From Aeromicrobium sp. CnD17-E (lineage in GTDB: Bacteria; Actinomycetota; Actinomycetes; Propionibacteriales; Nocardioidaceae): a stretch of DNA of 54,257 nucleotides. The notes under the pieces are model-generated. The model was not told the origin of the DNA. It searched no databases and saw nothing but the letters and a program-made list of their open reading frames with translations. Position numbers and translations under genes: made by a program. The stretch covers positions 1 through 54,257 of the forward strand of contig NZ_JAMXRU010000012.1 in the NCBI RefSeq assembly GCF_024124745.1. The letters run 5' to 3'. Below are positions 33,592 through 46,793 of the stretch, piece by piece. The first letter of the stretch is position 1; every line of letters starts with the position of its first letter.

Positions 33592-34116
33592 GTGGACGCC
33601 GCCACGGCGATCGACGCCTGCGTCCGGCCGGTCGAGGACTGGCCGGCGCCGGGCGTCACCTTCCGCGACGTCACGCCGCTGCTCGCCGACCCGGACGCGT
33701 TCGGCGCGGTGACGGCCGCGCTGGCCGACGCCGTCCGTGGGCTGCGCCCCGACGCCGTCGTCGGTGTCGAGGCGCGCGGGTTCATCTTCGGCGCGCCCCT
33801 GGCCCTGGAGCTGGGCGTCGGTTTCGTGCCCGTGCGCAAGGAGGGCAAGCTGCCTGCCGACACGCACCGCGCCACCTACGCGCTCGAGTACGGCGAGGCG
33901 ACGGTGGAGATCCACACCGATGCACTGGCGCCCGGCGCCCGCGTCGTCGTGGTTGACGACGTCCTCGCCACCGGCGGCACGCTGCGCGCGGCCGCCGAGC
34001 TGGTGCAGACCTGCGGCGCCGAGGTCGTGGGCAACGCCGTGGTCCTGGAGATCGGGGCGCTCGGAGGCCGCGAGCGGCTCGCGGACGTCCCGCTCGTGAG
34101 CCTGCGCCGCTACTGA
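33592..34116 (+). CDS. apt: Adenine phosphoribosyltransferase
   Basis: 174 residues from the GTG at 33592, the usual length. FPxxGVxFRDVTPLL-type start (WPAPGVTFRDVTPLL), VVGVEARGFIFG, the flexible loop FVPVRKEGKLP, and the PRPP-binding motif VVVVDDVLATGGTL are all present. It salvages adenine to AMP. A longer frame starts within the upstream lipoprotein gene, but the GTG at 33592, six bases after that gene's stop, gives the family's normal N-terminus. Part of the conserved secDF-apt-rel cluster. Confidence 0.94.
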   Translation: MDAATAIDACVRPVEDWPAPGVTFRDVTPLLADPDAFGAVTAALADAVRGLRPDAVVGVEARGFIFGAPLALELGVGFVPVRKEGKLPADTHRATYALEYGEATVEIHTDALAPGARVVVVDDVLATGGTLRAAAELVQTCGAEVVGNAVVLEIGALGGRERLADVPLVSLRRY

Positions 34117-34128
34117 GGACCGGAGACC

Positions 34129-34221
34129 GTGAACCCTCGACACACCCGCACCATCGCCCTCGTGCTCGTCGCCATCCTGGTGCTGACGGCGGCCGCCACC
34201 CTGCTGGACGTGCTCCTCTGA
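34129..34221 (+). CDS. 30-residue single-pass membrane micro-protein
   Basis: GTG at 34129 after GGAG (34122-34125), 12 bases downstream of the apt stop. The peptide starts MNPRHTRTIALVLVAILVLT and continues AAATLLDVLL before TGA. A short basic head followed by one uninterrupted hydrophobic helix of about 20 residues is the classic form of a bacterial membrane micro-protein. Third codon positions are almost all G or C. No family is recognised; a role near apt or rel would be guesswork. Confidence 0.5.
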   Translation: MNPRHTRTIALVLVAILVLTAAATLLDVLL

Positions 34222-34252
34222 CACGCCGCTTCGGTGGTGGCCGCCCCTGGCC

Positions 34253-34275
34253 TACGATGGAAGGCACGACAGGAG
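34253..34275 (+). promoter_or_regulatory. rel promoter (TACGAT) and Shine-Dalgarno
   Basis: TACGAT (34253-34258) precedes a short leader carrying AGGAG (34271-34275), spaced 6 bases from the GTG at 34282. Confidence 0.45.
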
Positions 34276-34281
34276 CAGTGA

Positions 34282-36615
34282 GTGGCTGATCGCATCGAGA
34301 CACCGCAGGCCGGAGCCCCCGAGGTGGCGCCGGCGACCGAGCCTGCCCGCGTCGACCCCGCCCCGGCGGGCGCTCGGGTGCGCAGCCGGCTGGCCCGCAT
34401 CGGCGGCCGCTCGACGCCGCAGAACCCGGTGCTCGACCCGCTGCTCGCGGTGTACCGCGAGAACCACCCGAAGGCCGACGTCGACGTCATCCGCAAGGCG
34501 TACGAGATCGCCGAGCGCATGCACGAGGGCCAGAAGCGCAAGAGCGGCGACCCCTACATCACCCACCCGCTCGCGGTCGCGACGATCCTCGCCGAGCTGG
34601 GCATGACCGGTCCGACGCTGTGCGCCGCGCTCCTGCACGACACCGTCGAGGACACGCCGTACACGCTCGACGCGGTCAGCACCGACTTCGGCGAGGAGGT
34701 GGCGCTGCTCGTCGACGGCGTCACCAAGCTCGACAAGGTCAAGTACGGCGACTCCGCGCAGTCGGAGACGATCCGCAAGATGGTCGTCGCGATGAGCCGC
34801 GACATCCGCGTGCTCGTCATCAAGCTCGCCGACCGGCTGCACAACATGCGCACGCTGCGCTACCTGCGCCAGGACAAGCAGGAACGCATCGCCCGCGAGA
34901 CGGTCGAGATCTTCGCGCCGCTGGCGCACCGGCTCGGCATGAACACGATCAAGTGGGAGCTCGAGGACCTTGCGTTCTCCACGCTGCACCCGAAGGTCTA
35001 CGACGAGATCGTCCGCCTCGTGGCCGACCGTGCGCCGTCGCGCGGCCAGTTCCTGGAGCGGGTCATCGGCGAGGTCGAGTCCGACCTGCGGCACGCGAAG
35101 ATCAAGGCGACGGTCAGCGGCCGGCCCAAGCACTACTACTCGATCTACCAGAAGATGCTGGTCCGCGAGCGCGAGTTCACGGACATCTTCGACCTCGTCG
35201 GCGTGCGGATCCTGGTCGACTCCGTGGCCGACTGCTACGGCGTGCTGGGCGTGCTCCACGCGCGGTGGAACCCGATCCCCGGTCGGTTCAAGGACTACAT
35301 CTCGGTCCCGAAGTTCAACATGTACCAGTCGCTGCACACGACCGTGATCGGCCCGCAGGGCAAGCCGGTCGAGCTGCAGATCCGTACGCACGCCATGCAC
35401 CGTCGCGCCGAGTACGGTGTCGCGGCGCACTGGAAGTACAAGGAGAACGGCAGCGCGCGTCCGGCCACCGGCAAGAACGCCTCGCCGGGCAGCGACGACA
35501 TGGCCTGGCTGCGCGAGCTGGTCCAGTGGCAGTCCGAGACCGAGGACTCCGTCGACTTCCTCGACAACCTGCGCTTCGAGATGAACAGCGCGGGCGTCTA
35601 CGCCTACACCCCGCGCGGCGACGTCATCCAGCTGCCCGCCCAGGCCACCCCGGTCGACTTCGCCTACGCCGTGCACACCGAGGTGGGCCACGCCTGCATC
35701 GGCGCCCGGGTGAACGGACGGCTCGTCTCGCTGGAGTCGGAGCTGAAGACGGGCGACGTCGTCGAGGTCTTCACGTCCAAGTCGCCCGACGCCGGGCCCA
35801 GCCGCGACTGGCTGGAGTTCGTCAAGAGCCCGCGCGCCCGCAACAAGATCCGCCAGTGGTTCACCAAGGAGCGGCGCGAGGAGGCGATCGAGCACGGCCG
35901 CGACCTCATCGCGAAGCAGATGCGCAAGGAGAACCTGCCGCTGCACCGCATCTTCAAGCACGACACGCTCGACGCGATCGCCAAGGACCTCAACCTCCCC
36001 GACGTCTCGGCGCTGTACGCCGCCGTGGGTGAGAACAACGTCGGTGCGCAGAACGTCGTCGAGCGGGTCATCGCCCTGTCCGGCGGCCGCGACGGAGCCG
36101 AGGAGGACCTCGCCGAGGCGACCGTCATCCCGGGCAGCGGCTCGCGCCGTCCGCGCGGCGACGGCCAGGCGGGCGTGCTCGTCGTCGGGGTCTCCGGCGA
36201 CCTCATGGTCAAGCTCGCCCGCTGCTGCACGCCGGTGCCGGGCGACGACATCGAGGGGTTCGTCACCCGAGGCTCGGGCGTCTCGGTGCACCGCAAGGAC
36301 TGCGTGAACCTGCAGTCGCTGCGCTCGCAGCCCGAGCGCCTGGTGCCGGTGCAGTGGGCCCCCACGGCGCACAGCACCTTCCTCGTCGCCATCCAGGTCG
36401 AGGCGCTCGACCGGCCCCGCCTGCTCAGCGACATCACCCGGATCATCTCCGACCAGCACGTGAACATCCTGTCGGCGGCACTGACCACGGGGCGCGACCG
36501 CGTCGCGAAGAGCAAGTTCAGCTTCGAGATGGGCGACCCGAAGCACCTCGACCACGTGCTCGCCGCCGTGCGGCACATCGAGGGCGTGTTCGACGTCTAC
36601 CGCGTCACCCAGTGA
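34282..36615 (+). CDS. rel: Bifunctional (p)ppGpp synthetase/hydrolase Rel
   Basis: 777 residues with all domains of a long RSH protein. HD hydrolase domain with [16 protein letters not shown] and LLHDTVEDT (H119-D120), the synthetase domain with [19 protein letters not shown] and GRFKDYI, TGS ([20 protein letters not shown]), a zinc-finger/helical region with CCTPVPGD, and a C-terminal ACT domain. RFKD rather than an acidic motif in the synthetase marks a bifunctional Rel with active hydrolase. It makes and removes the alarmone in response to uncharged tRNA on ribosomes. The N-terminal 45 residues are a variable Pro/Ala tail. It ends at a strong bidirectional terminator. Confidence 0.97.
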
Positions 36616-36654
36616 CGGTGTCCTGACGCCTGGCGCAGCCGTCAGGACACCGTC
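36614..36654. terminator. Bidirectional terminator between rel and the polysaccharide operon
   Basis: Perfect 15-bp stem GACGGTGTCCTGACG (36614-36628 with 36640-36654) and an 11-base loop between convergent genes. Confidence 0.85.
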
Positions 36655-36660
36655 GTCCCG

Positions 36661-39102
36661 TCAGGTCGGGATGACCTTGAACAGGAAGCGCTGGCGCACC
36701 ATCAGCCAGATCAGCCCCAGCTCGACGGTGTGCACGACGGCGCCCTGCCACGGGCTGCTGCGGTCGAGGCCGGGGATGTTGGCGACGGCCACGACGAAGA
36801 AGACGTGCACGATGAACACGTAGAGGCTGGCCGCGCCGATCGGCACGTAGAACCAGCCGAACAGGCGGTTCATCGGCTTCCACGCGGCCGTCAGCAGCGC
36901 GTAGGCGACGACCAGCACGAGCAGCAGGTCGAGGAGGCGTCCCGGCTGCAGGTAGATGCGCTGGTAGAGGTTCTCGTACAGCCAGTCGTAGCGCACGATG
37001 CCGAGGAACGGAGCCCCCTGCGTCGCCCACAGCGTCGCGAGCACGACCGCGTAGCCCACCACGAGCGTCGTGACCACCGCGACGCCGCGTCGGCTCGTCA
37101 GCGCCCGGGTGATCGGGCGGCGGTAGTAGCCGATCACGAGTCCGTGCAGGAAGGGCAGCTGCCAGCTGAGCAGCGGGAACACGGCGTCGAACTGCGAGGG
37201 CAGGACGGACGCCTTCGTCACGGCCTCGATGCCGTACAGGGTCCAGGAGATGACCAGGACGAGCCACCACAGCCGTCGACGCAGCAACCACATGAGGGCG
37301 GGCACCAGGGCCGAGAGCACGACGAACAGGCCCATGATGTTGAAGACCCAGGGGCCCATCTCCAGGAGCAGCAGCCCTCGCACGGCGTACCACGGGGGCG
37401 GGTAGGCGAGCAGCTGCGGGAAGTTCGCGTAGAGGTCGTACACCTGGCCCGCCGCCGCGCCACCGCCCGTGCCCGTGCCGCGGTCGGTGAACGTGGTGAC
37501 GACCGTCGCGCTGATGCCCGGCACCAGCCCGATGAGGTAGACGAGCACGACGACCCCGAGGGCCGTCAGGTACTGCTTGCGCACGCGGGCCCACGCCGCC
37601 GCCGACGCAGCCCGCTCGCCGAGCCGCTCGACGGTCCGTGGGTAGACCATGCCCAGCACGAGCCCGGACAGCAGCACGAACATCTCGGCCCCGGTGATGG
37701 CGCCGATCGCGTTGCGGCTGAGGAACGAGTAGGGACCTGCGAGCTCGGTGTGGATGACGACCACCGTGACCATCACCCAGCCGCGGAGGAAGTCGACCCG
37801 TCCGTCGCGCAGCCCGCCGTCGTCGGGGTAGCGCCACGACGGTGCGACGCGACGCACCAGGCCCGAGCCGACGAAGAGCACGGCGGCGAGCACGACGCAC
37901 CCCACGATCCAGGCCATCGGGTCGCCGTCGGCCGGGTCGGCCTGGCGGTACTCGGCGGTCGACTCGTTCGCGACCTCCTGGTCGACCACCCGGGTGACGG
38001 CGCCGGTCGTCGCACCCGTGCGCAGGACCGCCTCGAACGGGCGGGCGAGCTCGGGACGCGACGTGACCCGCCAGTCGGTCTCGCGACCGTCGGCCTCGTC
38101 CTCACGGCGCCGTTGCTCGAGCCAGGTGACGAGGTCGAGGCGAGGGTAGGCGGACCGGACGGTGGGGGAGAAGACCTGGTCCCACCAGGCCGACTTCACG
38201 GCGAGCTCGTCGACGTCGCCGCGGTCGTACCAGGCTGCCGCGGTCTCCAGCGACATCGAGCGTCCGTCGCGGGCGAAGCGGTCGTAGAACGGACGACGTC
38301 GGGTGTCGTCGTCGTAGCCGTAGCGCTCCTGCAGACGAGCCACGAGCTCGTCGGAGGCCGGGACGGAGTCGGTGCCGAACGGCTGCGCCCGACCGAACCG
38401 GAACATCACCAGGCCGACCCGGTCGACGACGTCGGCACCGGGCCAGTACGGACCGTACGGGTCGTCAGCCTCGGTGACCCGACCGTCGTCGTCGGTGTCG
38501 AGCTGGCCGAGGGGCCGGGGCGCGGAGCCCGGGATCGAGCCGTAGGCCCGACCGAAGGGGTAGCCGGCGCCGTACGCCGGGACCCAGGCCATCTCGACGG
38601 CGTCGGTCCGCGACGCGATCCCTCGGGCCGCCTCGCGGAATGCCGCCGTGTACGCCTCGGGCTGCTGCCCCCACGCCGTCCAGGTGCCGTTCATCTCCGG
38701 GGCGAACCGGACCACGAACTCGGTGTCGAGCTGCTCGTGGAGGGTCTCCAGCTGCTCACCGACGGCGCGGGCGTCGGCCGCCGTCAGGTCGTCCAGCGGG
38801 ATCCGCGGCTCGAGGGTGAGCTGCGCGATCGCCCCGTGCGCGGCGGTCTGCTGCACGAACTGGCGCAGGAACACCCGGTCGTCGCGGTCGAGCGGGTAGC
38901 GCACCTTCTGGGCGTACACCGACGGGGAGACGCCGAGCCGGTCGGCGTAGTCGTCGGCGGAGTCGCGGGTCCAGTCGAGCATGGGCCCCACGTAGGGGCC
39001 GTCCGTCGGCGTCGGCACGACGTCGGCGGCCTGGGCGGTCGTTCCGCCCAGGAGGGGGAGGAGCCCGACGAGCGCCGTGAGGAGCAGACGCCGCAGGATC
39101 AC
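36661..39102 (-). CDS. Exported GH26-like glycosidase fused to an OpgC-type membrane acyltransferase
   Basis: 813 residues. A signal peptide (1-26) precedes an extracytoplasmic GH26 (beta-mannanase-like) domain to about residue 360. E136 in FAPEMNG fits the GH26 acid/base, and E286 in SLETAAAW is a plausible nucleophile. Within it, DTDDDGRVTEAD (202-213) is a perfect EF-hand calcium loop. A membrane helix (about 395-415) leads into an OpgC-like acyltransferase region of about ten helices, beginning RVDFLRGWVMVTVVVIHTE. OpgC adds succinyl groups to periplasmic glucans. The likely role is trimming and acylating the polymer made by the synthase of this operon. GTG start overlaps the kinase gene stop (GTGA). 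Last gene of the five-gene operon. Confidence 0.78.
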   Translation of the reverse strand: MILRRLLLTALVGLLPLLGGTTAQAADVVPTPTDGPYVGPMLDWTRDSADDYADRLGVSPSVYAQKVRYPLDRDDRVFLRQFVQQTAAHGAIAQLTLEPRIPLDDLTAADARAVGEQLETLHEQLDTEFVVRFAPEMNGTWTAWGQQPEAYTAAFREAARGIASRTDAVEMAWVPAYGAGYPFGRAYGSIPGSAPRPLGQLDTDDDGRVTEADDPYGPYWPGADVVDRVGLVMFRFGRAQPFGTDSVPASDELVARLQERYGYDDDTRRRPFYDRFARDGRSMSLETAAAWYDRGDVDELAVKSAWWDQVFSPTVRSAYPRLDLVTWLEQRRREDEADGRETDWRVTSRPELARPFEAVLRTGATTGAVTRVVDQEVANESTAEYRQADPADGDPMAWIVGCVVLAAVLFVGSGLVRRVAPSWRYPDDGGLRDGRVDFLRGWVMVTVVVIHTELAGPYSFLSRNAIGAITGAEMFVLLSGLVLGMVYPRTVERLGERAASAAAWARVRKQYLTALGVVVLVYLIGLVPGISATVVTTFTDRGTGTGGGAAAGQVYDLYANFPQLLAYPPPWYAVRGLLLLEMGPWVFNIMGLFVVLSALVPALMWLLRRRLWWLVLVISWTLYGIEAVTKASVLPSQFDAVFPLLSWQLPFLHGLVIGYYRRPITRALTSRRGVAVVTTLVVGYAVVLATLWATQGAPFLGIVRYDWLYENLYQRIYLQPGRLLDLLLVLVVAYALLTAAWKPMNRLFGWFYVPIGAASLYVFIVHVFFVVAVANIPGLDRSSPWQGAVVHTVELGLIWLMVRQRFLFKVIPT

Positions 39103-39524
39103 CCGTTCCTCCGGCAGGTCACCGTCCAGCGGTTGATGTCGCCCTCGCGCTCGTAGGCGAGGGCGTCGACGGCGGCGATGGTCAGGGCGAGCCCGCGACC
39201 GTCCTCGGCATCCGGCGGGGGCATCGTCACGTCGCTGAGGTCGAGCCCCACCGGACGGCCGTCGTCGGCGAACCGCGCCTCGACCAGTCCGGGGGACACG
39301 TCGAGCTGGATCGCGACCTGGCGCAACGGCGGGCCGGGGTGGTGGCGCACGCTGTGCTCCACGATGTTGGCGAAGATCTCGACGAGCGCCATCTCGAACC
39401 GCACCCGGTCCGTCGTCGAGACCGACGGGACGCTCTCCCAGAGCTGGGCGATCTCGTCCTGGAGCGTGTCGACCTGCTCGGGGACGGCCTCCAGCACCAG
39501 GTGGACGCTGTGCACGTCGCCCAT
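39099..39524 (-). CDS. RsbW/SpoIIAB-like HATPase serine kinase (anti-sigma type)
   Basis: 141 residues, a single GHKL ATP-binding domain. N box EIFANIVEHS (E49 and N53 contact Mg-ATP), G1 box FADDGRP (D87-G89), G2 box DGRGLAL (109-114). Proteins of this size phosphorylate a STAS partner on serine and in turn bind a target, classically a sigma factor. The STAS partner is encoded immediately upstream with a one-base overlap (TGATG). No sigma factor gene is in the operon, so its output partner may be the synthase or an unlinked factor. Confidence 0.87.
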   Translation of the reverse strand: MGDVHSVHLVLEAVPEQVDTLQDEIAQLWESVPSVSTTDRVRFEMALVEIFANIVEHSVRHHPGPPLRQVAIQLDVSPGLVEARFADDGRPVGLDLSDVTMPPPDAEDGRGLALTIAAVDALAYEREGDINRWTVTCRRNG

Positions 39525-39853
39525 CAGAACGCCTCCGCGACCGAGGCGCGGGGTCGGAGCACGCGGTCGAGGTTGGTCAGGGACAGGACGGTCGTCACCT
39601 GCTCGGTCGGTCGGGCGAGCCGCAGGTCGCCGCCGGCCTGGCGGCACCGCTTCAGACCGGCGATGAGCGCGCCCAGGCCCGAGGAGTCGAGGAACGTGGT
39701 CTCGCCCAGGTCGACGACGACCTTCGACGTCCCGCCGTCGACGAGGCCGGTGATGGCCTCGGTCAGCTGTCGGGTGACGACCATGGTGAGCCGGCCGACC
39801 GGGGTGACGACCCCGATCCCGCGCTCGGTGTGGGCGACGTGGATGTCGGTCAT
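39524..39853 (-). CDS. STAS-domain anti-anti-sigma factor-like protein
   Basis: 109 residues, one STAS domain. LGETTFLDSSGLGALIAGL contains the phosphorylatable serine motif D56-S57-S58-G59 of SpoIIAA/RsbV proteins. The unphosphorylated form would bind the HATPase kinase encoded next; the PP2C phosphatase encoded at the head of the operon would regenerate it. ATG overlaps the stop of the glycosyltransferase gene (ATGA). Its being encoded directly after the synthase suggests that it relays the signal to polysaccharide production. Confidence 0.9.
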   Translation of the reverse strand: MTDIHVAHTERGIGVVTPVGRLTMVVTRQLTEAITGLVDGGTSKVVVDLGETTFLDSSGLGALIAGLKRCRQAGGDLRLARPTEQVTTVLSLTNLDRVLRPRASVAEAF

Positions 39854-41805
39854 GCGGGGGTCCTCTCCTCGACCGATGCGCTGCCGCGGTACCGCGCGGC
39901 CCGGATGATGATGCTCAGGATGACGAGGTCGAACACGACCCACACCACGTTCAGTGCCGTACCCAGCGGCTGGGCCTGTCCCACGCCGAGGCGGATGCCG
40001 CCGATCACGAGGGCCGCGACGAGCAGGCCCATGGCGACGAGCTGCGGCTTGATCAGGTCCCAGCGGGGCCGCCCCTCCGTGGCCGTCACGGTCTTCGGCG
40101 TCACGGCGAAGTCGAGGGCTCGGCCGCGGTACACGTTCCCGAAGGCCGACGTGAACGCCTTGATCCAGACCGGGAACAGCGCGAGCGAGTACTGCTGGCC
40201 GCGCCAGGTCTTCACCCCGCGCCCCACCACGAAGAACAACAGCTGGTTCACGACGAGGAACGGCACGAGCCGGATGAAGAAGTCGCTGCTGAGCGCCTGC
40301 ACCGGGAGCACGCCGAGGATCAGGTAGACCACCGGCGCGCCGATGTAGACGATGGCGGCGAAGCCGGACAGGTAGCTCCACATCGTCGCGAAGTACATGA
40401 GGCGCTGCGGCCACGACAGCCCAGGCTGCACGAGCGGGTTCTCGCGGAACATCACCTGGACCGTGCCCTGGGCCCAGCGCAGGCGCTGTGTGAGCATCGA
40501 GGCCATGTCCTCCGGGGCGAGTCCGTGCGCGAGGACCTCGTGGTGGTAGGCCGTGCGCCAGCCCATGCCGTGCAGGCGCATCGCGGTGGCCATGTCCTCG
40601 GTGACCGAGATGGTCGCGAGGGGCATGACGGGCTGGGCCTCGTCGAGCCGCGACACGTCGACCGCGTCGACCAGTCGTCGCACGCTGCTGAGTGCCCCGG
40701 CTGCCGACCAGTCACGCTCCAACGTCGCGGCGAGCACCTCGACGTCGACCGCGTCGAGGCCGTCCGTCGACAACCCGTCCTCGAGGGCGGCGATGGCGGC
40801 GACGTCGTCGGCGAGCAGCCGGGCGTCGGAGCGGGCCACCTCGCGCTCGGCGTCGCGCAGGCGCAGGCCGAACCGGAACGTCACGTCGGCGACGGCCTCG
40901 CCACGGTCGAGCGCGCCCAGGGCGCGTCGGGCGTCGTAGTCGATGCTGTCGAGCAGGGTCCTGAGGGAGGCGTCGGACTCCTCGACGCCAGATCGCGCAC
41001 GGTCGACGATCTTGCGGGCCGTCCGCAGGGCGGTGCGGACGCTGCGCTCGAGCTCGTCGGCGTAGCGCGAGACGCCGAGCTGCATGAGCGCCTCGCGGCG
41101 GATGACGGCGTTGGATCCGCAGAAGAAGGCGGCGTTCCAACCGTCCTTGCCCTGCTGGATGGGGCCGTAGAACAGGGGGGCCTGGCTGCCGAGCACATCG
41201 GCGTCGTCGACGTTGACGAAGTACTGCGGCGTCTGCACGAGCGCCATGCGGGGGTCGTCGAAGTAGCCGAGGACGCGGTCGAGGATGTCGGGGGTCGGTA
41301 CCTGGTCGGCGTCGAGGATGAGGATGAACTCGCCCTCCGTGGCCATGAGCGCGTTGTTGATGTTCCCGGCCTTCGCGTGCCGGGGACGGTCGACCCAGTC
41401 GGCGGTGCGGTGCAGGCAGCCGATGCCGTGCTGCTCCGCCCAGGCCGCGAGCTCCGGACGGTTGCCGTCGTCCAGGATCCACGTCTGGTGCGGGTGGCGG
41501 ATCTCGGCAGCCGCCAGGGCGGTGCGCTGCACGAGGTCGAGCGGCTCGTTGTAGGTGGTGATGAAGACGTCGACCGTGGCCTCGGGCGGCGCGTCAGGTG
41601 GGGCGGGACGTCGCTTCGAGCGCCACATGGTCATGCCGAACAGCAGCGAGTCGATGACGCTGTAGGTCTCGGCGATCACGAGCGGCACGGCGATCCACCA
41701 GGCCGGCCAGTTCACGGAGAAGAGCCAGCGCCAGAGGACGTAGTTGACCCCGAGGACGGCGGTGAGGACCACCAGGAGCCGGACCTGCCAGAGCGGTGAG
41801 CTCAC
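39850..41805 (-). CDS. BcsA-like processive family 2 glycosyltransferase (membrane polysaccharide synthase)
   Basis: 651 residues. Two N-terminal membrane helices, a GT-A domain, then about five C-terminal helices. All processive GT2 motifs are present: DDG (112-114), DAD (165-167), TED (402-404) and QRLRW (440-444), with FFCGSNAVIRREAL at 227-240. It should polymerise and extrude a beta-linked glucan or similar from a UDP-sugar. Two oddities: about 150 mostly helical, charged residues (245-395) are inserted between the acceptor-site motif and TED, and there is no PilZ domain, the c-di-GMP switch of cellulose synthases. GTG start overlaps the phosphatase stop (GTGA). Cellulose synthase is possible but unproven. 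Confidence 0.88.
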   Translation of the reverse strand: MSSPLWQVRLLVVLTAVLGVNYVLWRWLFSVNWPAWWIAVPLVIAETYSVIDSLLFGMTMWRSKRRPAPPDAPPEATVDVFITTYNEPLDLVQRTALAAAEIRHPHQTWILDDGNRPELAAWAEQHGIGCLHRTADWVDRPRHAKAGNINNALMATEGEFILILDADQVPTPDILDRVLGYFDDPRMALVQTPQYFVNVDDADVLGSQAPLFYGPIQQGKDGWNAAFFCGSNAVIRREALMQLGVSRYADELERSVRTALRTARKIVDRARSGVEESDASLRTLLDSIDYDARRALGALDRGEAVADVTFRFGLRLRDAEREVARSDARLLADDVAAIAALEDGLSTDGLDAVDVEVLAATLERDWSAAGALSSVRRLVDAVDVSRLDEAQPVMPLATISVTEDMATAMRLHGMGWRTAYHHEVLAHGLAPEDMASMLTQRLRWAQGTVQVMFRENPLVQPGLSWPQRLMYFATMWSYLSGFAAIVYIGAPVVYLILGVLPVQALSSDFFIRLVPFLVVNQLLFFVVGRGVKTWRGQQYSLALFPVWIKAFTSAFGNVYRGRALDFAVTPKTVTATEGRPRWDLIKPQLVAMGLLVAALVIGGIRLGVGQAQPLGTALNVVWVVFDLVILSIIIRAARYRGSASVEERTPA

Positions 41806-43049
41806 TCCGCCGCGTCCTTGCGCACCGCCAGCACGGTCACGTCGTCGCGGACGGGCACGGCGAGGGCGAGGCGCTCGACCTCGCGCACGAGCCGGTGCGG
41901 CGACCCCGTGGCGGCGACGAGACGGCTGACGGCGGCGGACGGCACCTCGATGTCGGGGACGACGTCGAGCAGACCGTCGCTGAAGCACACGAACGTGTCA
42001 CCCGCGGCGAGCGCGACGCGCTGCTCGTGCCAGTCGGACGTGGCGTCGACGCCGAGCGGCAGGTCGTCGGAGCCGAGTGTCGTGGTGCTCCCGTCGTGGT
42101 GGACGACCACGGAGAGTCCGTGGCCGGCGTCGACGAACGACAGGACGCCGGTGTGCGGGTCGGCCCAGCCGAGGAAGATGGTGACGAACGCCTCGGCGGC
42201 CTCCAGGTCGTCCTGGACGACGTCGCGCGCGCGTTCGAGCACACCACCCAGGTGGCCGCGGGTGGCCGGGTCGGTCGCGGCGAAGCGGCGCATCTCCGCC
42301 CGGATGACGGTGCGGACCGCGGACATGAGGATGGCGGCGGCGGTGCCCTTGCCCATGACGTCGGCGACGAGCACGTAGTGCCCGCCCTCGAGCTCGCGGT
42401 GGTCGAAGGCGTCGCCTGCGACGAGGCCGGTGGCGACGCACGTGGCGGCGAACGTGTAGCCCGGGACGGGCGCGACACCGCGGGGGAGGAGGGCCTGCTG
42501 CACCGACGTGGCGTGCTCGCGGTCGGAGCTGAGGTGCACCTCGTCCTGCACGCAGGTGGCGAGCTGCTCGAGCATCGTGAGGTCGTGGTCGTCGAACTCG
42601 CGCGGGCTCGTGTCGTAGAGGCACAGCGTCCCGATGGTCGTGCCGTGCTGGTCGCGGATCGGGTGGCCGGCGTAGAAGCGGACCCCGAAGGCGGTGACGG
42701 TGGGCAGGGAGGCGAAGGCCGGGTCCTGCACCGCGTCGTTGATCACGAGGGGCGCGTCGTGCTCGCGCGTGGTCTCGCAGAACGTGTCGCTCGTCCTGAT
42801 CTCGGTGACCCCGTCGATGCCGGCGGTCGACTTCAGGAAGGACCGCTCGTGGTCGAAGAGGTTGATGCTCGACATCGGCACGCCCCAGATGGTGCGAGCC
42901 AGCTGCGTGAACCGGTCGAACCTCTCCTCGCGGGGGGTGTCGAGCAGTCCGGTCGCCTCGACCGCGCGGTCGGGGTCGGTCGTCGTGGCGGGCGGCTCGC
43001 GGTACGCGGTCAACGTCCGCGCCCCGCCCTCCCCGGGGGCTTCGTCCAT
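41802..43049 (-). CDS. GAF-PP2C (SpoIIE/RsbU-type) serine phosphatase
   Basis: 415 residues. The GAF domain (about 30-175) has the typical SDTFCETTREHDAPLVINDA and YAGHPIRDQHGTTIGTLCLY strands and would sense a ligand or redox signal. The C-terminal SpoIIE-type PP2C domain shows LVAGDAFD, ADVMGKGTAAAI, DAGHGLSV and CFSDGLLD, then DDVTVLAV: all metal-binding aspartates are in place. It would dephosphorylate the STAS protein of the operon. First gene; the ATG at 43049 is preceded by an AT-rich stretch (TTAGAT, then 7 bases) that is probably its -10 region. Repeat element C lies further upstream. Confidence 0.9.
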   Translation of the reverse strand: MDEAPGEGGARTLTAYREPPATTTDPDRAVEATGLLDTPREERFDRFTQLARTIWGVPMSSINLFDHERSFLKSTAGIDGVTEIRTSDTFCETTREHDAPLVINDAVQDPAFASLPTVTAFGVRFYAGHPIRDQHGTTIGTLCLYDTSPREFDDHDLTMLEQLATCVQDEVHLSSDREHATSVQQALLPRGVAPVPGYTFAATCVATGLVAGDAFDHRELEGGHYVLVADVMGKGTAAAILMSAVRTVIRAEMRRFAATDPATRGHLGGVLERARDVVQDDLEAAEAFVTIFLGWADPHTGVLSFVDAGHGLSVVVHHDGSTTTLGSDDLPLGVDATSDWHEQRVALAAGDTFVCFSDGLLDVVPDIEVPSAAVSRLVAATGSPHRLVREVERLALAVPVRDDVTVLAVRKDAAE

Positions 43050-43371
43050 ACGTTTTATCTAACCGGACGATCGGGGACAGTGCCACCGAATCGGCCGCAT
43101 GGCGGCAGGGCAAAAAAGCGACACCGTGTCCGGAGGGGGACGGACGAGCGGATTGTCGCTCGACCTGCGGGAGCGCCGGTGCGGCCTCTCGTTCGGGTGG
43201 GGCTGCGTCGGTGCGGCTTCGAGTCGTCCTGCGGCTGCGCCGGCGCGTCTTCGACTCGTCCTGCGGCTGCGTCGGCTCCGCTCCGACTCGTCCTGCGCTC
43301 CGCAAGGGCCTCGACCGGGCGGTTGGGCGGTCGCTGGTCTGGGGTCTCGGGCTGCGGGTTGCGCGTCCCAT

Positions 43372-43419
43372 CGGTGGATCTGCAACCTTCTGAGCGCTCT
43401 ACAGGTGGCAGATCCACCG
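43372..43419. repeat. Element C hairpin 1
   Basis: 17-bp arms (43372-43388 with 43403-43419), one mismatch; arms and loop are base-for-base identical to copy A. Confidence 0.87.
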
Positions 43420-43437
43420 CCGAGCGGGCCAGACGTG

Positions 43438-43489
43438 GCAGCGCTTCTCCCTTCTCGTGGACCGTGCCACGGGAAGGGAGAAGCGCTGC
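43438..43489. repeat. Element C hairpin 2
   Basis: 23-bp arms (43438-43460 with 43467-43489) with a single T-G wobble and loop ACCGTG. The longest version of this hairpin. Confidence 0.88.
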
Positions 43490-43940
43490 CCACCCCACCC
43501 CCAAGTCCGCCCACGATGCTTCCTTCGCGCGCTGAAGCCCGAACGCTTCTGCGTTCATGACGGGATCCCGTGGGAAACGCAGAAGTCTCGAACCTCCGAC
43601 GCACAAAGGAAGAATCGTGTGTCCAACCAGGGCCACAGCCCGAGAACCCAGACCACGTGCCCGCCCAGCTGCCCGGTCGAGGCCCTTTCGGAGACCACAC
43701 CCAGCGAAAGCCGAGGCAGCGCACCAGCAAGCCCAGACCCCCTGCGGCAGCGCACCAGCAAGCCGAGACCCCCTGCAGCAGCGCACCAGCAGGAGGAGAC
43801 CCCTGCGGCAGCGCAGCACCGAACCCTGCCGAGACCCCCAGGCCAGCGCACCACCAAGCCGCGCCACGACCCCCTCCGGCGCCACGTGCAGGTCACCGGG
43901 GCGACACCCGGTGGTCAGACGGGTGGGGGAGGGTCGTGTC

Positions 43941-45515
43941 ATGAGCTCGGGGGAGATCGATCGTCGAACCGTCGTCCGCGCGGCTGCGCTGGCTGCCGTC
44001 ACCTCTGGCGGCGTGCTGCTGGGGAGTGGGCCGGCGGCTGCCCGCGGCGTGCCGTCCCTGGTGCGCCGGGGGAGGCCGGAGCTGACGCACGGGGTGCAGG
44101 CCGGTGACGTGCACGCTGGACAGGCGACGCTGTGGGGGCGGGCCGACCGGCCGGCGCGTCTCGTCGCGGAGATCTCGCGCGACCCGTCCTTCCGGCGCGC
44201 CGTGACCGTCCCCGGTCCGCGCGTCACGCCCGACACCGACCTCACCGGGCAGTGGGCGGTGCGCGGGCTCCCGCCCGGCACCGACGTGCACTACCGGCTG
44301 CGCGCCGTCGACCTGCACGACCCGCGACGCTCGGGTCGTCCGGTCGCCGGCCGGCTCCGGACGCTCGGCGTACGGCGGCGCGACGTCCGCTTCCTGTGGT
44401 CCGGCGACGTCGCTGGGCAGGGCTGGGGCGTCAACCCCGACCTGGGCGGCTTCCGCATCGCCGACGCGATGGCCCGCCGCGACGCCGACTTCTTCCTCTG
44501 CAGCGGCGACACCGTGTACGCCGACGGTCCCGTCCAGGCGTCGGTGCCGCTCTCGGACGGCCGGACGTGGACGAACCTCGTCACGGAGGAGAAGTCGAAG
44601 GTCGCCGAGACACTCGCCGAGTACCGGGGCCAGTACCGCTACAACCTGGAGGCGGAGAACTGGCGTGCGTTCCTGGCGAGCACCGCGCAGGTGACGCAGT
44701 GGGACGACCACGAGGTCACGAACAACTGGTACCCGGGCGAGGTGCTGGACGACGCGCGGTACACCGAGCGCCGTGTCGACGTGCTCGCGGCGCGGGCGCG
44801 GCGCGCGTTCCACGACTACGTGCCCGTCGCCGAGATCTCGCCCGACCGGGTCGGACGGGTCTACCGCGTCCTGCACCAGGGACCGCTGCTCGACGTCTTC
44901 GTCCTCGACATGCGCACCCACAAGGACCCGAACACGGCCGGCGACGAGACCTCGGGCGACGGCGGGGTGCTCGGCGCGGAGCAGACCAGGTGGCTGCTGC
45001 GCGAGCTGCGCGCCTCCCGCGCCACGTGGAAGGTCATCGCGGCGGACCTGCCGATCGGGCTCGTCGTGCCCGACGGCAGCAGCGCGCAGGAGGGTCTGGC
45101 CCAGGGCGACGCCGGGGCTCCGCGCGGTCGGGAGATCGACATCGCGCAGGTGCTCACGGCGCTGCAGGACGCCGGCATCCGCAACCACGTGTGGCTCACG
45201 GCCGACGTGCACTACACGGCCGCGCACCACTACTCGCCCGACCGGGCCGCCTACCAGCGGTTCGACCCGTTCTGGGAGTTCGTGTCCGGCCCGTTGAACG
45301 CCGGTGCGTTCGGACCCAACCGGCTCGACTCGACGTTCGGTCCGCGCGCGGAGTTCGTCGCCGCCCCGCCCACGCCCAACACCGGCCCGGCGGACGGGTT
45401 CCAGTTCTTCGGCGAGGTCGAGATCGACGCCGCCACCGAGGCGCTGACCGTCACCCTGCGCGACGTCGACGGGCGGGCGCTCCACACCCGCACGCTCGAG
45501 CCGCAGGCGCGCTAG
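43941..45515 (+). CDS. phoD: PhoD-type alkaline phosphatase/phosphodiesterase, Tat-exported
   Basis: 524 residues. The N-terminus EIDRRTVVRAAALAAVTSGG is a twin-arginine signal, as usual for PhoD. An N-terminal Fn3-like domain (VQAGDVHAGQATLWGRADR onward) precedes the metallophosphatase core: LWSGDVAGQ, FFLCSGDTVYADG, TQWDDHEVTNNW and LTADVHYTAAHHY carry the metal ligands. PhoD enzymes release phosphate from mono- and diesters such as teichoic acids outside the cell. The frame is open upstream through repeat element C, but the ATG at 43941 follows GGGGGAGGG and gives a proper Tat signal. A small dyad CACCGGG/CCCGGTG (43895-43914) lies in its upstream region. Confidence 0.9.
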   Translation: MSSGEIDRRTVVRAAALAAVTSGGVLLGSGPAAARGVPSLVRRGRPELTHGVQAGDVHAGQATLWGRADRPARLVAEISRDPSFRRAVTVPGPRVTPDTDLTGQWAVRGLPPGTDVHYRLRAVDLHDPRRSGRPVAGRLRTLGVRRRDVRFLWSGDVAGQGWGVNPDLGGFRIADAMARRDADFFLCSGDTVYADGPVQASVPLSDGRTWTNLVTEEKSKVAETLAEYRGQYRYNLEAENWRAFLASTAQVTQWDDHEVTNNWYPGEVLDDARYTERRVDVLAARARRAFHDYVPVAEISPDRVGRVYRVLHQGPLLDVFVLDMRTHKDPNTAGDETSGDGGVLGAEQTRWLLRELRASRATWKVIAADLPIGLVVPDGSSAQEGLAQGDAGAPRGREIDIAQVLTALQDAGIRNHVWLTADVHYTAAHHYSPDRAAYQRFDPFWEFVSGPLNAGAFGPNRLDSTFGPRAEFVAAPPTPNTGPADGFQFFGEVEIDAATEALTVTLRDVDGRALHTRTLEPQAR

Positions 45516-45516
45516 T

Positions 45517-45549
45517 CGTCGACACCCCGGGCGCCGGGGCGTCTCGACG
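45517..45549. terminator. Hairpin between convergent genes
   Basis: CGTCGA...TCGACG (45517-45522, 45544-45549) encloses CCCCG/CGGGG; it starts just after the PhoD stop and lies 12 bases before the stop of the convergent DUF349 gene. Confidence 0.6.
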
Positions 45550-45560
45550 ACCGTCGGGAC

Positions 45561-46793
45561 TCAGCCGAAGTCGGCGGCGGCCTTCTGGGCCATCGCCAGG
45601 AACGACTCGTTCGACTCCAGCTTCGCGCTCAGGTCCTTGACCTTGCGTGCGTCGCCGGCCGCCTCGGCCTTCGCGAGGGCCTCACGGGTCTCGTCGATCG
45701 CGCGCTGCAGCTTGCCGATCATGTCGTCGGCGCGGGCGGACTTCTCGGGGTCCGAACGCTTCCACTCCTGCTCACCGGCAGCCCGGACGGCCTGCTCGAC
45801 CGTGCGCAGACGTCCCTCGAGCTCCTTGACCCGGCCGCGCGGCACCTTGCCCGCGGCCTCCCAGCGGTCGGCGATGTCGTTGAGGGCGCGGCGTGCCTTG
45901 TCGAGGTCGGTGACGGGCAGGAGCGCCTCGGCCTCGACCAGGAGCTGCTCCTTCACGACGGCGTTGGCGGCGAACTCCTCGTCGAGCGCGGCGTTCGCGG
46001 CGTCACGGGCCTGGAAGAAGACGTCCTGGGCGGCGCGGAAGCGCTTCCAGAGCTTGTCCTCGACGTTGCGGGGCGCGGAGCCGGCAGCCTTCCAGCGGGT
46101 CATGAGGTCGCGGTAGGCGCCCGACGTGGGACCCCACTCGGTGGAGGAGGAGAGCGCCTCGGCCTCGGCGATCAGCTTCTCCTTGACCTTCTGCGCGGCC
46201 TCGCGCTGCGTGTTCTGCTCGGCGAAGTGGGCCTTGCGCTTGCGCGTGTACGCGGTGCGCGCGGCGCTGAAGCGGTGCCAGAGCTGGTCGTCGGCCGACT
46301 TGCTGAGCCGGGGGAGTGCCTTCCACTCCTCGAGCAGCTCGCGCAGCCGGTCGGCGCCGGCGCGCCAGTCCTGGCCGGCCGCGATCTTCTCGGCCTCCTC
46401 GACGATGCGCGTCTTCGCGACGGTCGCCTCCGCGACCTTGGCCTCACGCTCGGCGCGACGCTCCTCGCGCTGCTTCTCGATGGCCGGGGCCAGCGCGTCC
46501 AGACGCGCCTCCAGGGAGGCGAGATCGCCGATCGCGGCGGCGTCCGTCACCTCCCCGCGCACCTTCGCGACGGCCTTGGCGGCCTCGTCGGGCGACAGCG
46601 CACCCGAGGCGAGACGCTTCTCGAGCAGGTCGACCTCGGTCTCGAGGCCCTCGAAGCGTCGGACGTAGAAGGCGAGCCCCTCGGCGGGGTCCCCGACCTT
46701 CCACTCGCCGATCTCTCGTTCGGAGTCACCGGTCTTGACGAAGACCGTCCCCTCGGCGTCGACGCGGCCCCACGGGTGCTCGGCGGTGGTCAT
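45561..46793 (-). CDS. DUF349-repeat coiled-coil protein
   Basis: 410 residues. After an N-terminal beta segment (WGRVDAEGTVFVKTGDSERE) come a coiled coil and at least three helical DUF349 repeats, each with a W-x-x-AG(S/K)AP/VPR-type block (TRWKAAGSAPRNVEDKLW and DRWEAAGKVPRGRVKELE). Function is not established for actinobacteria; the protein is conserved there and often lies near hisS and rel, as here. No membrane segment. The start is set by TAGACT (46805-46800, minus strand), 6 bases before the ATG. Confidence 0.88.
   Translation of the reverse strand: MTTAEHPWGRVDAEGTVFVKTGDSEREIGEWKVGDPAEGLAFYVRRFEGLETEVDLLEKRLASGALSPDEAAKAVAKVRGEVTDAAAIGDLASLEARLDALAPAIEKQREERRAEREAKVAEATVAKTRIVEEAEKIAAGQDWRAGADRLRELLEEWKALPRLSKSADDQLWHRFSAARTAYTRKRKAHFAEQNTQREAAQKVKEKLIAEAEALSSSTEWGPTSGAYRDLMTRWKAAGSAPRNVEDKLWKRFRAAQDVFFQARDAANAALDEEFAANAVVKEQLLVEAEALLPVTDLDKARRALNDIADRWEAAGKVPRGRVKELEGRLRTVEQAVRAAGEQEWKRSDPEKSARADDMIGKLQRAIDETREALAKAEAAGDARKVKDLSAKLESNESFLAMAQKAAADFG

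Follow-up and report, generated by a model that had tools for sequence, protein, structure and literature searches.

We have found in Aeromicrobium sp. CnD17-E a five-gene operon in which a cellulose synthase-like polysaccharide synthase is encoded together with a complete partner-switching module, i.e., a PP2C phosphatase, a STAS protein and a HATPase that is its presumed kinase. The operon lies on the minus strand at positions 36661-43049 of contig NZ_JAMXRU010000012.1, whose 54,257 nucleotides (called here the window) are part of a genome of 3.57 Mb. Comparison with related loci suggests that the switch acts directly on the synthase, which we consider probable whichever of the partners makes the contact. 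For the more specific reading in which the switch works after translation, with the STAS protein as the effector, we see an even chance. Among the matches listed, the closest relative of the synthase that bears a name is encoded in a Propionibacteriales metagenome-assembled genome (96% identity). The genes, and the parts of them discussed below, are the following.

41802..43049, minus strand: GAF-PP2C (SpoIIE-type) serine phosphatase, 415 amino acids (Pfam GAF 66.4 bits; SpoIIE, PF07228, 114.1 bits)
39850..41805, minus strand: BcsA-like GT2 polysaccharide synthase without PilZ, 651 amino acids (Pfam Cellulose_synt 70.8 bits, GT2 68.6 bits)
40612..41100, minus strand: stretch taken as the insertion of the synthase, residues 236-398, predicted helical and lying between the CGSN strand and the TED motif
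40711..40809, minus strand: sub-segment of the insertion, residues 333-365, adjoined by S367
39524..39853, minus strand: STAS protein with DSSGLG, 109 amino acids (Pfam STAS 65 bits)
39683-39685: codon of Ser57, the presumed phosphosite of the STAS protein
39099..39524, minus strand: RsbW/SpoIIAB-like HATPase, presumed STAS kinase (Pfam HATPase_c_2 49.5 bits, with a query that began one codon upstream)
36661..39102, minus strand: fusion of a GH26-like domain and an OpgC acyltransferase, 813 amino acids (Pfam OpgC_C 169 bits, cut-off 21.4)

Reading frames and translations show that each gene overlaps the next, by GTGA (41805-41802), ATGA (39853-39850), TGATG (39526-39522, the HATPase gene starting at 39524) and GTGA (39102-39099), exactly as an earlier note on this DNA had described. 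The domain identities proposed there also hold, by Pfam for GAF-PP2C, GT2, STAS, HATPase and OpgC and by a family profile for GH26, and its remark that the operon encodes no sigma factor extends to the whole window contig, where no SigB/F match was found. The three switch proteins have the features of RsbU, RsbV and RsbW, i.e., a SpoIIE-type PP2C, a STAS protein with a phosphorylatable serine and a HATPase of the RsbW/SpoIIAB type; such trios classically control sigma factors. The HATPase family profile matches the solved RsbW 6m36 at 3.6e-12 and also SpoIIAB 1l0o. The N, G1 and G2 boxes are all present in the window protein. An alignment of 30 rows shows no exception for Glu, Asn and His of the N box or for the glycines of G2, and a single row without the G2 arginine. 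The D56-S57-S58 (DSS) of the STAS protein is invariant in 30/30 rows. The GAF-PP2C phosphatase is presumed to be both sensor and activator. Scans for promoters and terminators gave nothing above chance, and Rfam gave no match in 34000-46000.

We have compared the best 80 of at least 523 synthase relatives, a set in which near relatives weigh most. The gene order recurs far beyond chance: PP2C, synthase, STAS and HATPase stand in a row in 49 of the 80, synthase, STAS and HATPase in 56, and two more carry the module in another arrangement. The eight loci with no HATPase in the fetched stretch are all titled Arthrobacter. For six of them the whole genome was examined, and in each case a PP2C-STAS-HATPase cassette was found at another place (one of the remaining two is from the same strain as a checked locus, and the other lay outside the check). 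The association also holds over whole families. The synthase was found in 30 of 149 genomes of the window family and the HATPase family in 32, with both in 30 and adjacent (less than 1.5 kb) in 29; for the 199 genomes of the Clavibacter family (which we take to be the Microbacteriaceae) the corresponding numbers were 36, 42, 31 and, at less than 2 kb, 30. These paired searches are assumed to cover the same genomes, as their totals and handles agree. Fisher tests gave 2e-29 and 6e-22, respectively, for genomes that, being related, are not independent, and over the two families the genes are adjacent in 59 of the 61 genomes holding both. In a sample of the phylum the synthase was present in at least 2 of 296 genomes at E<=1e-60, a lower bound since at most four candidates were scored per genome. 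The operon is a widespread and coherent functional unit.

The Clavibacter family also provides a natural contrast. Five of its genomes (G590, G605, G645, G658 and G670) have the synthase without a HATPase, and four of them, as well as the later-found G694, have an insertion that is shorter by about 40 residues. These five short synthases lack residues 333-365 and any serine counterpart of S367 but keep the catalytic and FxVTxK motifs. Two of them (L163 and L165) carry a STAS domain at the C-terminus of the synthase itself (PF01740, 26.4 and 23.0 bits, cut-off 22.6), and in the other three (L162, L164 and L206) STAS is the gene directly after the synthase. In all five, the serine at what we take to be the position of the SpoIIAA phosphosite is replaced by Pro or Ala. 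Neither HATPase nor PP2C was found in these five loci with filters off; the absence of the HATPase extends genome-wide in 4 of the 5 genomes, that of PP2C refers to the locus. Within the family the HATPase accompanies the synthase in 31 of 32 genomes with the full insertion and in none of four with the short one, and seven further full-insertion loci, picked by hand, all have it (7/7). The exception is G670, where a full insertion and a STAS protein with its serine are followed by an rpsO-like gene (identified by eye), with no HATPase found. In the tree, the synthases with the short insertion form a monophyletic group (support 1.0), whose sister group is the remaining actinobacterial synthases. 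An unphosphorylatable STAS on or beside an intact synthase is best read as a permanently permissive state, although the polarity of that reading is itself inferred.

The synthase resembles BcsA. It scores 352 bits with the CelA model TIGR03030, below the cut-off of 699, and Pfam finds no PilZ in it. An AlphaFold model built on 44 sequences (mean predicted local distance difference test score 79.5, predicted template modeling score 0.78) is closest to Escherichia coli BcsA, with Z 28.8 and a root-mean-square deviation of 2.8 over 476 aligned residues. It aligns to that protein only up to residue 698, and the chain of the synthase ends shortly past its last membrane helix. The DD(G), DxD, TED, QxxRW and FxVTxK motifs are conserved in the alignment, the last one being invariant in its 44 rows. 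No BcsB is encoded among the five operon genes, the part of the genome searched for it. The insertion, helical by structure prediction, has a length of 151-175 residues in every one of the 81 actinobacterial synthases that formed a first set, and its S367 is invariant in the 44 rows and in the seven further full-insertion loci. A search with its sequence profile against the PDB, Foldseek and VIA-align revealed no recognized relative. We considered that it could mimic a sigma factor. The PDB search gave no convincing match (best E 0.012), Foldseek none at E<=0.001, and the top VIA-align Z was 9.6, when helical bundles become meaningful only from a Z of about 13. No sigma factor appeared among the 50 rows listed by each of the two structural searches, which in itself excludes nothing.

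To weigh indirect routes, we have searched the SigB/F model TIGR02980 (cut-off 234 bits) in 13 genomes and then in 20 genomes and two plasmid records. The module-bearing genomes of Planctomonas (L047) and Arthrobacter Bz4 (L051) have no SigB/F, reaching about 130 bits at best, a level that is seen in nearly every genome and that we read as the principal sigma factor. The eight Curtobacterium genomes gave at most 132.9 bits, and all the other synthase-bearing genomes searched, Kocuria apart, had a match of at least 190 bits. Kocuria (L050) is not counted as sigma-less, as it showed no sigma match at all and its genome is probably incomplete. GGDEF domains had no match in 7 of the 20 synthase-bearing genome handles (G417 and G325 appear to be one genome, which would make it 7 of 19), namely two of the window family, two Curtobacterium, two Clavibacter and Nocardioides acrostichi. 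Direct action is favored because of the fusion clade with its joint losses, the two module genomes without SigB/F and the genomes without GGDEF.

We propose that the partner switch would control the synthase of its own operon after translation. The HATPase would phosphorylate the STAS protein on Ser57 and so hold it off; a signal perceived by the GAF domain would lead PP2C to strip the phosphate, and unphosphorylated STAS would then bind the synthase and permit synthesis, filling the role played in cellulose synthase by cyclic di-GMP (c-di-GMP) and PilZ. The switch, probably through its HATPase, is likely to dock on the distal half of the helical insertion, next to TED. Phosphorylation, binding and polarity, as well as the product, we infer from the genes. 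A permissive role of STAS fits the retention of a permanently unphosphorylated STAS on an intact synthase, and from the comparison it is STAS, more than the kinase by itself, that would be expected to touch the enzyme. The fullest version of the proposal, in which STAS is a detachable, phospho-gated subunit replacing c-di-GMP and PilZ, the insertion serves the kinase as its dock, and a single lineage has fixed the active state through fusion of an unphosphorylatable STAS and loss of kinase, phosphatase and docking segment, is more tentative, and we put it at somewhat under an even chance.

Several observations weigh against these readings. The fused STAS matches are weak, with PF13466 below its own cut-off in L163 and L165. 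Since the fusion clade is a single lineage, it represents one evolutionary contrast and not five, and its short insertion could be the ancestral form. Co-variation did not discriminate a docking partner, as partial Mantel values of the insertion were 0.41 with the HATPase, 0.35 with STAS and 0.39 with PP2C (41 of 53 cis loci, once near-duplicates and loci without PP2C were dropped). In 14 of the 80 loci, all titled Curtobacterium, the synthase is followed by a HATPase without STAS or PP2C. Modules of the HATPase family also exist in genomes without the synthase, 2 of 32 and 11 of 42 in the window and Clavibacter families, respectively. The window genome has one SigB/F-like sigma factor (221 bits, under the cut-off) outside the window contig, and six GGDEF matches, none of them on that contig. 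Lastly, no genome with the full module in cis has been shown to lack both SigB/F and GGDEF.

The second geometry of direct action would have the HATPase bind and inhibit the insertion of the synthase, as RsbW does with its sigma factor, unphosphorylated STAS serving only to draw the HATPase off. The HATPase is actually the most constant neighbor, present in 72 of the 80 loci vs. 58 for STAS, it is the sole partner kept in the Curtobacterium loci, and the insertion segment and the HATPase are absent from exactly the same loci, if only in one clade. However, STAS is still there, in some cases as part of the synthase, when there is no HATPase gene, and it would then have no task; we regard this arrangement as unlikely. 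A separate STAS-HATPase pair was found in the four Curtobacterium genomes tested (4/4); since Clavibacter and two synthase-free genomes (together L167-L169) have a similar pair close to a PP2C gene, this is probably a paralog, i.e., a second module.

To the preferred reading, with STAS acting on the synthase, one can also oppose the classical role of RsbU/V/W modules. The target would then be a sigma factor whose gene lies outside the operon, with transcription as the only way in which the synthase is affected. The SigB/F-like factor of the window genome suits this scheme, and so do the stand-alone modules without synthase. Two of them in the window family (L153 and L154) are GAF-PP2C, STAS and HATPase cassettes, and inspection of their neighbors by eye, with no search aimed at it, showed no sigma factor. 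On the other side stand the contig without SigB/F, the two module genomes with only about 130 bits and the STAS-synthase fusion, so that a sigma target appears rather improbable. A third route would have the switch set the level of c-di-GMP through a diguanylate cyclase, with c-di-GMP activating the synthase. It has a precedent in Bgr (excerpts of PMC8457831), the window genome has its six GGDEF matches, and BgsA is described as binding c-di-GMP without PilZ in excerpts of PMC5567048. But a third or so of the synthase-bearing handles are free of GGDEF, the window contig has none, there is no PilZ, and the synthase ends shortly after its last membrane helix, whereas BgsA has a tail of 139 residues (same excerpts of PMC5567048); we find this route very hard to sustain. 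That the genes merely travel together, e.g., for the joint expression of surface-stress genes and with no regulatory contact, would agree with modules that occur alone but is highly improbable given the adjacency in 59 of 61 genomes, the retention of the module in trans where the operon is split and the fusion of STAS.

The inference of the earlier note, a phosphorylation switch on the synthase in the place of c-di-GMP, comes out of this partly supported. Its suggestion of a possible direct action on the synthase gains real support from co-occurrence, fusion, joint losses and the genomes without SigB/F or GGDEF. The replacement of c-di-GMP agrees with the missing PilZ and the GGDEF-free genomes, but against the six GGDEF matches of the window genome it is not shown for the host.

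The product of the operon is probably a cell-surface polysaccharide, a beta-glucan with acyl groups. The window GH26-OpgC protein alone gives no Pfam GH26 match, but a family profile of 20 rows, 12 of which match Pfam GH26 individually (the window's not among them), finds solved GH26 enzymes, the best being endoglucanase H at 2e-21. The GH26 domain of this enzyme is presumably a lichenase, and the closeness hints at a beta-glucan. In the column that we take to be that of the nucleophile, the window domain (38068-39027) and the other window-type rows, fused to OpgC, have Thr (15/15), and the five stand-alone rows have Glu; the Glu that we assign as acid/base is kept in the window domain (PEMNG). 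Because of this Thr, the domain is probably inactive as a glycosidase and perhaps a pseudo-enzyme that may bind the glycan instead of cutting it.

Similar gene sets appear on plasmids of distant bacteria. A plasmid search matched 532 records, 23 of them over at least 80% of the query, and among the 20 plasmid rows listed we have compared the insertions in the Nostoc and Paracoccus records only. Since the iterated profiles included distant Nocardioidaceae-like, Nostoc and Paracoccus matches, whose scores are inflated for that reason, the Nostoc proteins were checked with Pfam: no more than about 6 kb separates the synthase from STAS, HATPase_c_2 and SpoIIE proteins, and a protein with a sub-threshold GH26 match is encoded upstream. 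The annotation of the Paracoccus record lists SpoIIE, GAF, STAS, ATP-binding, OpgC and GH16 genes within about 10 kb. The Nostoc synthase (L002:11917-13899) has a longer insertion elsewhere, between DDG and DxD, and the Paracoccus one has smaller insertions (both records, L002 and L003, were left out of the 44-row alignment and of the structure prediction). As these insertions differ, the helical insertion described here is an actinobacterial feature and the association with the switch is wider; insertions in switch-linked synthases may have arisen more than once.

Some variants of the switch proteins were seen along the way. The G1 box of the HATPase is degenerate in a Micrococcaceae/Planctomonas clade (L041, L047, L050, L051, L054, L060, L065, L066, L073, L075 and L082) and also in L091-L096, with the N and G2 boxes, the STAS serine and the phosphatase mostly kept; kinase activity may be altered there. 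In two loci (L170:5856-7709 and L171:6464-8116) HATPase, GAF and PP2C are joined in a single frame immediately before the synthase gene, with a second STAS gene ahead of them. The other stand-alone STAS protein of the window genome (L144:3141-3617) adjoins a topA-like gene, presumably like BldG in Streptomyces, and no HATPase of the operon family was found near it. Between the operon and the next gene (43166-43870) there are two arrays of 31-32-nucleotide repeats (43201-43297 and 43715-43861), with inverted repeats between them, and two strong hairpins (43372-43419 and 43437-43490), which make up a mirrored element that may be mobile or structural.

There are known systems with parts of this design. 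Baena et al. reportedly described in 2019 a Bgr partner switch together with the mixed-linkage glucan synthase BgsA in Sinorhizobium meliloti. Excerpts of PMC8546604 cite Baena et al. (2019) for Bgr/BgsA. There too a STAS-based switch governs a GT2 beta-glucan synthase; however, the target of Bgr is the diguanylate cyclase BgrR and the effect passes through c-di-GMP, while here there is no GGDEF on the contig and several synthase-bearing genomes have none. According to excerpts of PMC8457831, both Bgr and Hsb switches act on cyclases, and in SiaABCD of Pseudomonas aeruginosa a phosphatase and a kinase gate a small protein, SiaC, that activates an enzyme, SiaD, by direct binding. That enzyme is a diguanylate cyclase, and SiaC, which belongs to DUF1987, receives its phosphate on Thr68 (same source). 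In Vibrio fischeri SypE/SypA, unphosphorylated STAS likewise promotes polysaccharide or biofilm (excerpts of PMC4517449, PMC8256260 and PMC11112999), but kinase and phosphatase are combined in SypE, and here the probable target lies in the operon. The targets of SypA and of HmpV are given as unknown in the parts seen of PMC4517449 and PMC8256260, and the level at which SypA acts likewise in PMC11112999. HmpU/V/W of Nostoc punctiforme is also a partner switch tied to polysaccharide with no known STAS target, which can be set apart by description only, excerpts of PMC8256260 giving no link to the synthase family of the operon. Anabaena All4160, a STAS fused to a glycosyltransferase needed for polysaccharide, comes close to the fusions found here, by description only and with its STAS at the N-terminus (also excerpts of PMC8256260). 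BcsA shares fold, catalytic motifs and gating-loop motif, but the window synthase has no PilZ, has the helical insertion before TED and falls below the CelA cut-off. In open-licence PMC literature we found no report of this arrangement or of a partner switch with a direct effect on a polysaccharide synthase, and a term search in an Actinoplanes paper on exopolysaccharide clusters (OpgC/GH26) found no STAS or phosphatase.

Switches of the SypA/HmpV type have been left without a known target, and here the likely target adjoins the STAS gene and in some relatives is part of the same protein. With the likely target encoded next door or fused, the question of what STAS switches act on becomes directly testable. 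The system is spread over the Actinomycetota, with related gene sets on Nostoc and Paracoccus plasmids. If the proposal is true, processive polysaccharide synthases could be switched in a further way, in addition to c-di-GMP and transcription.

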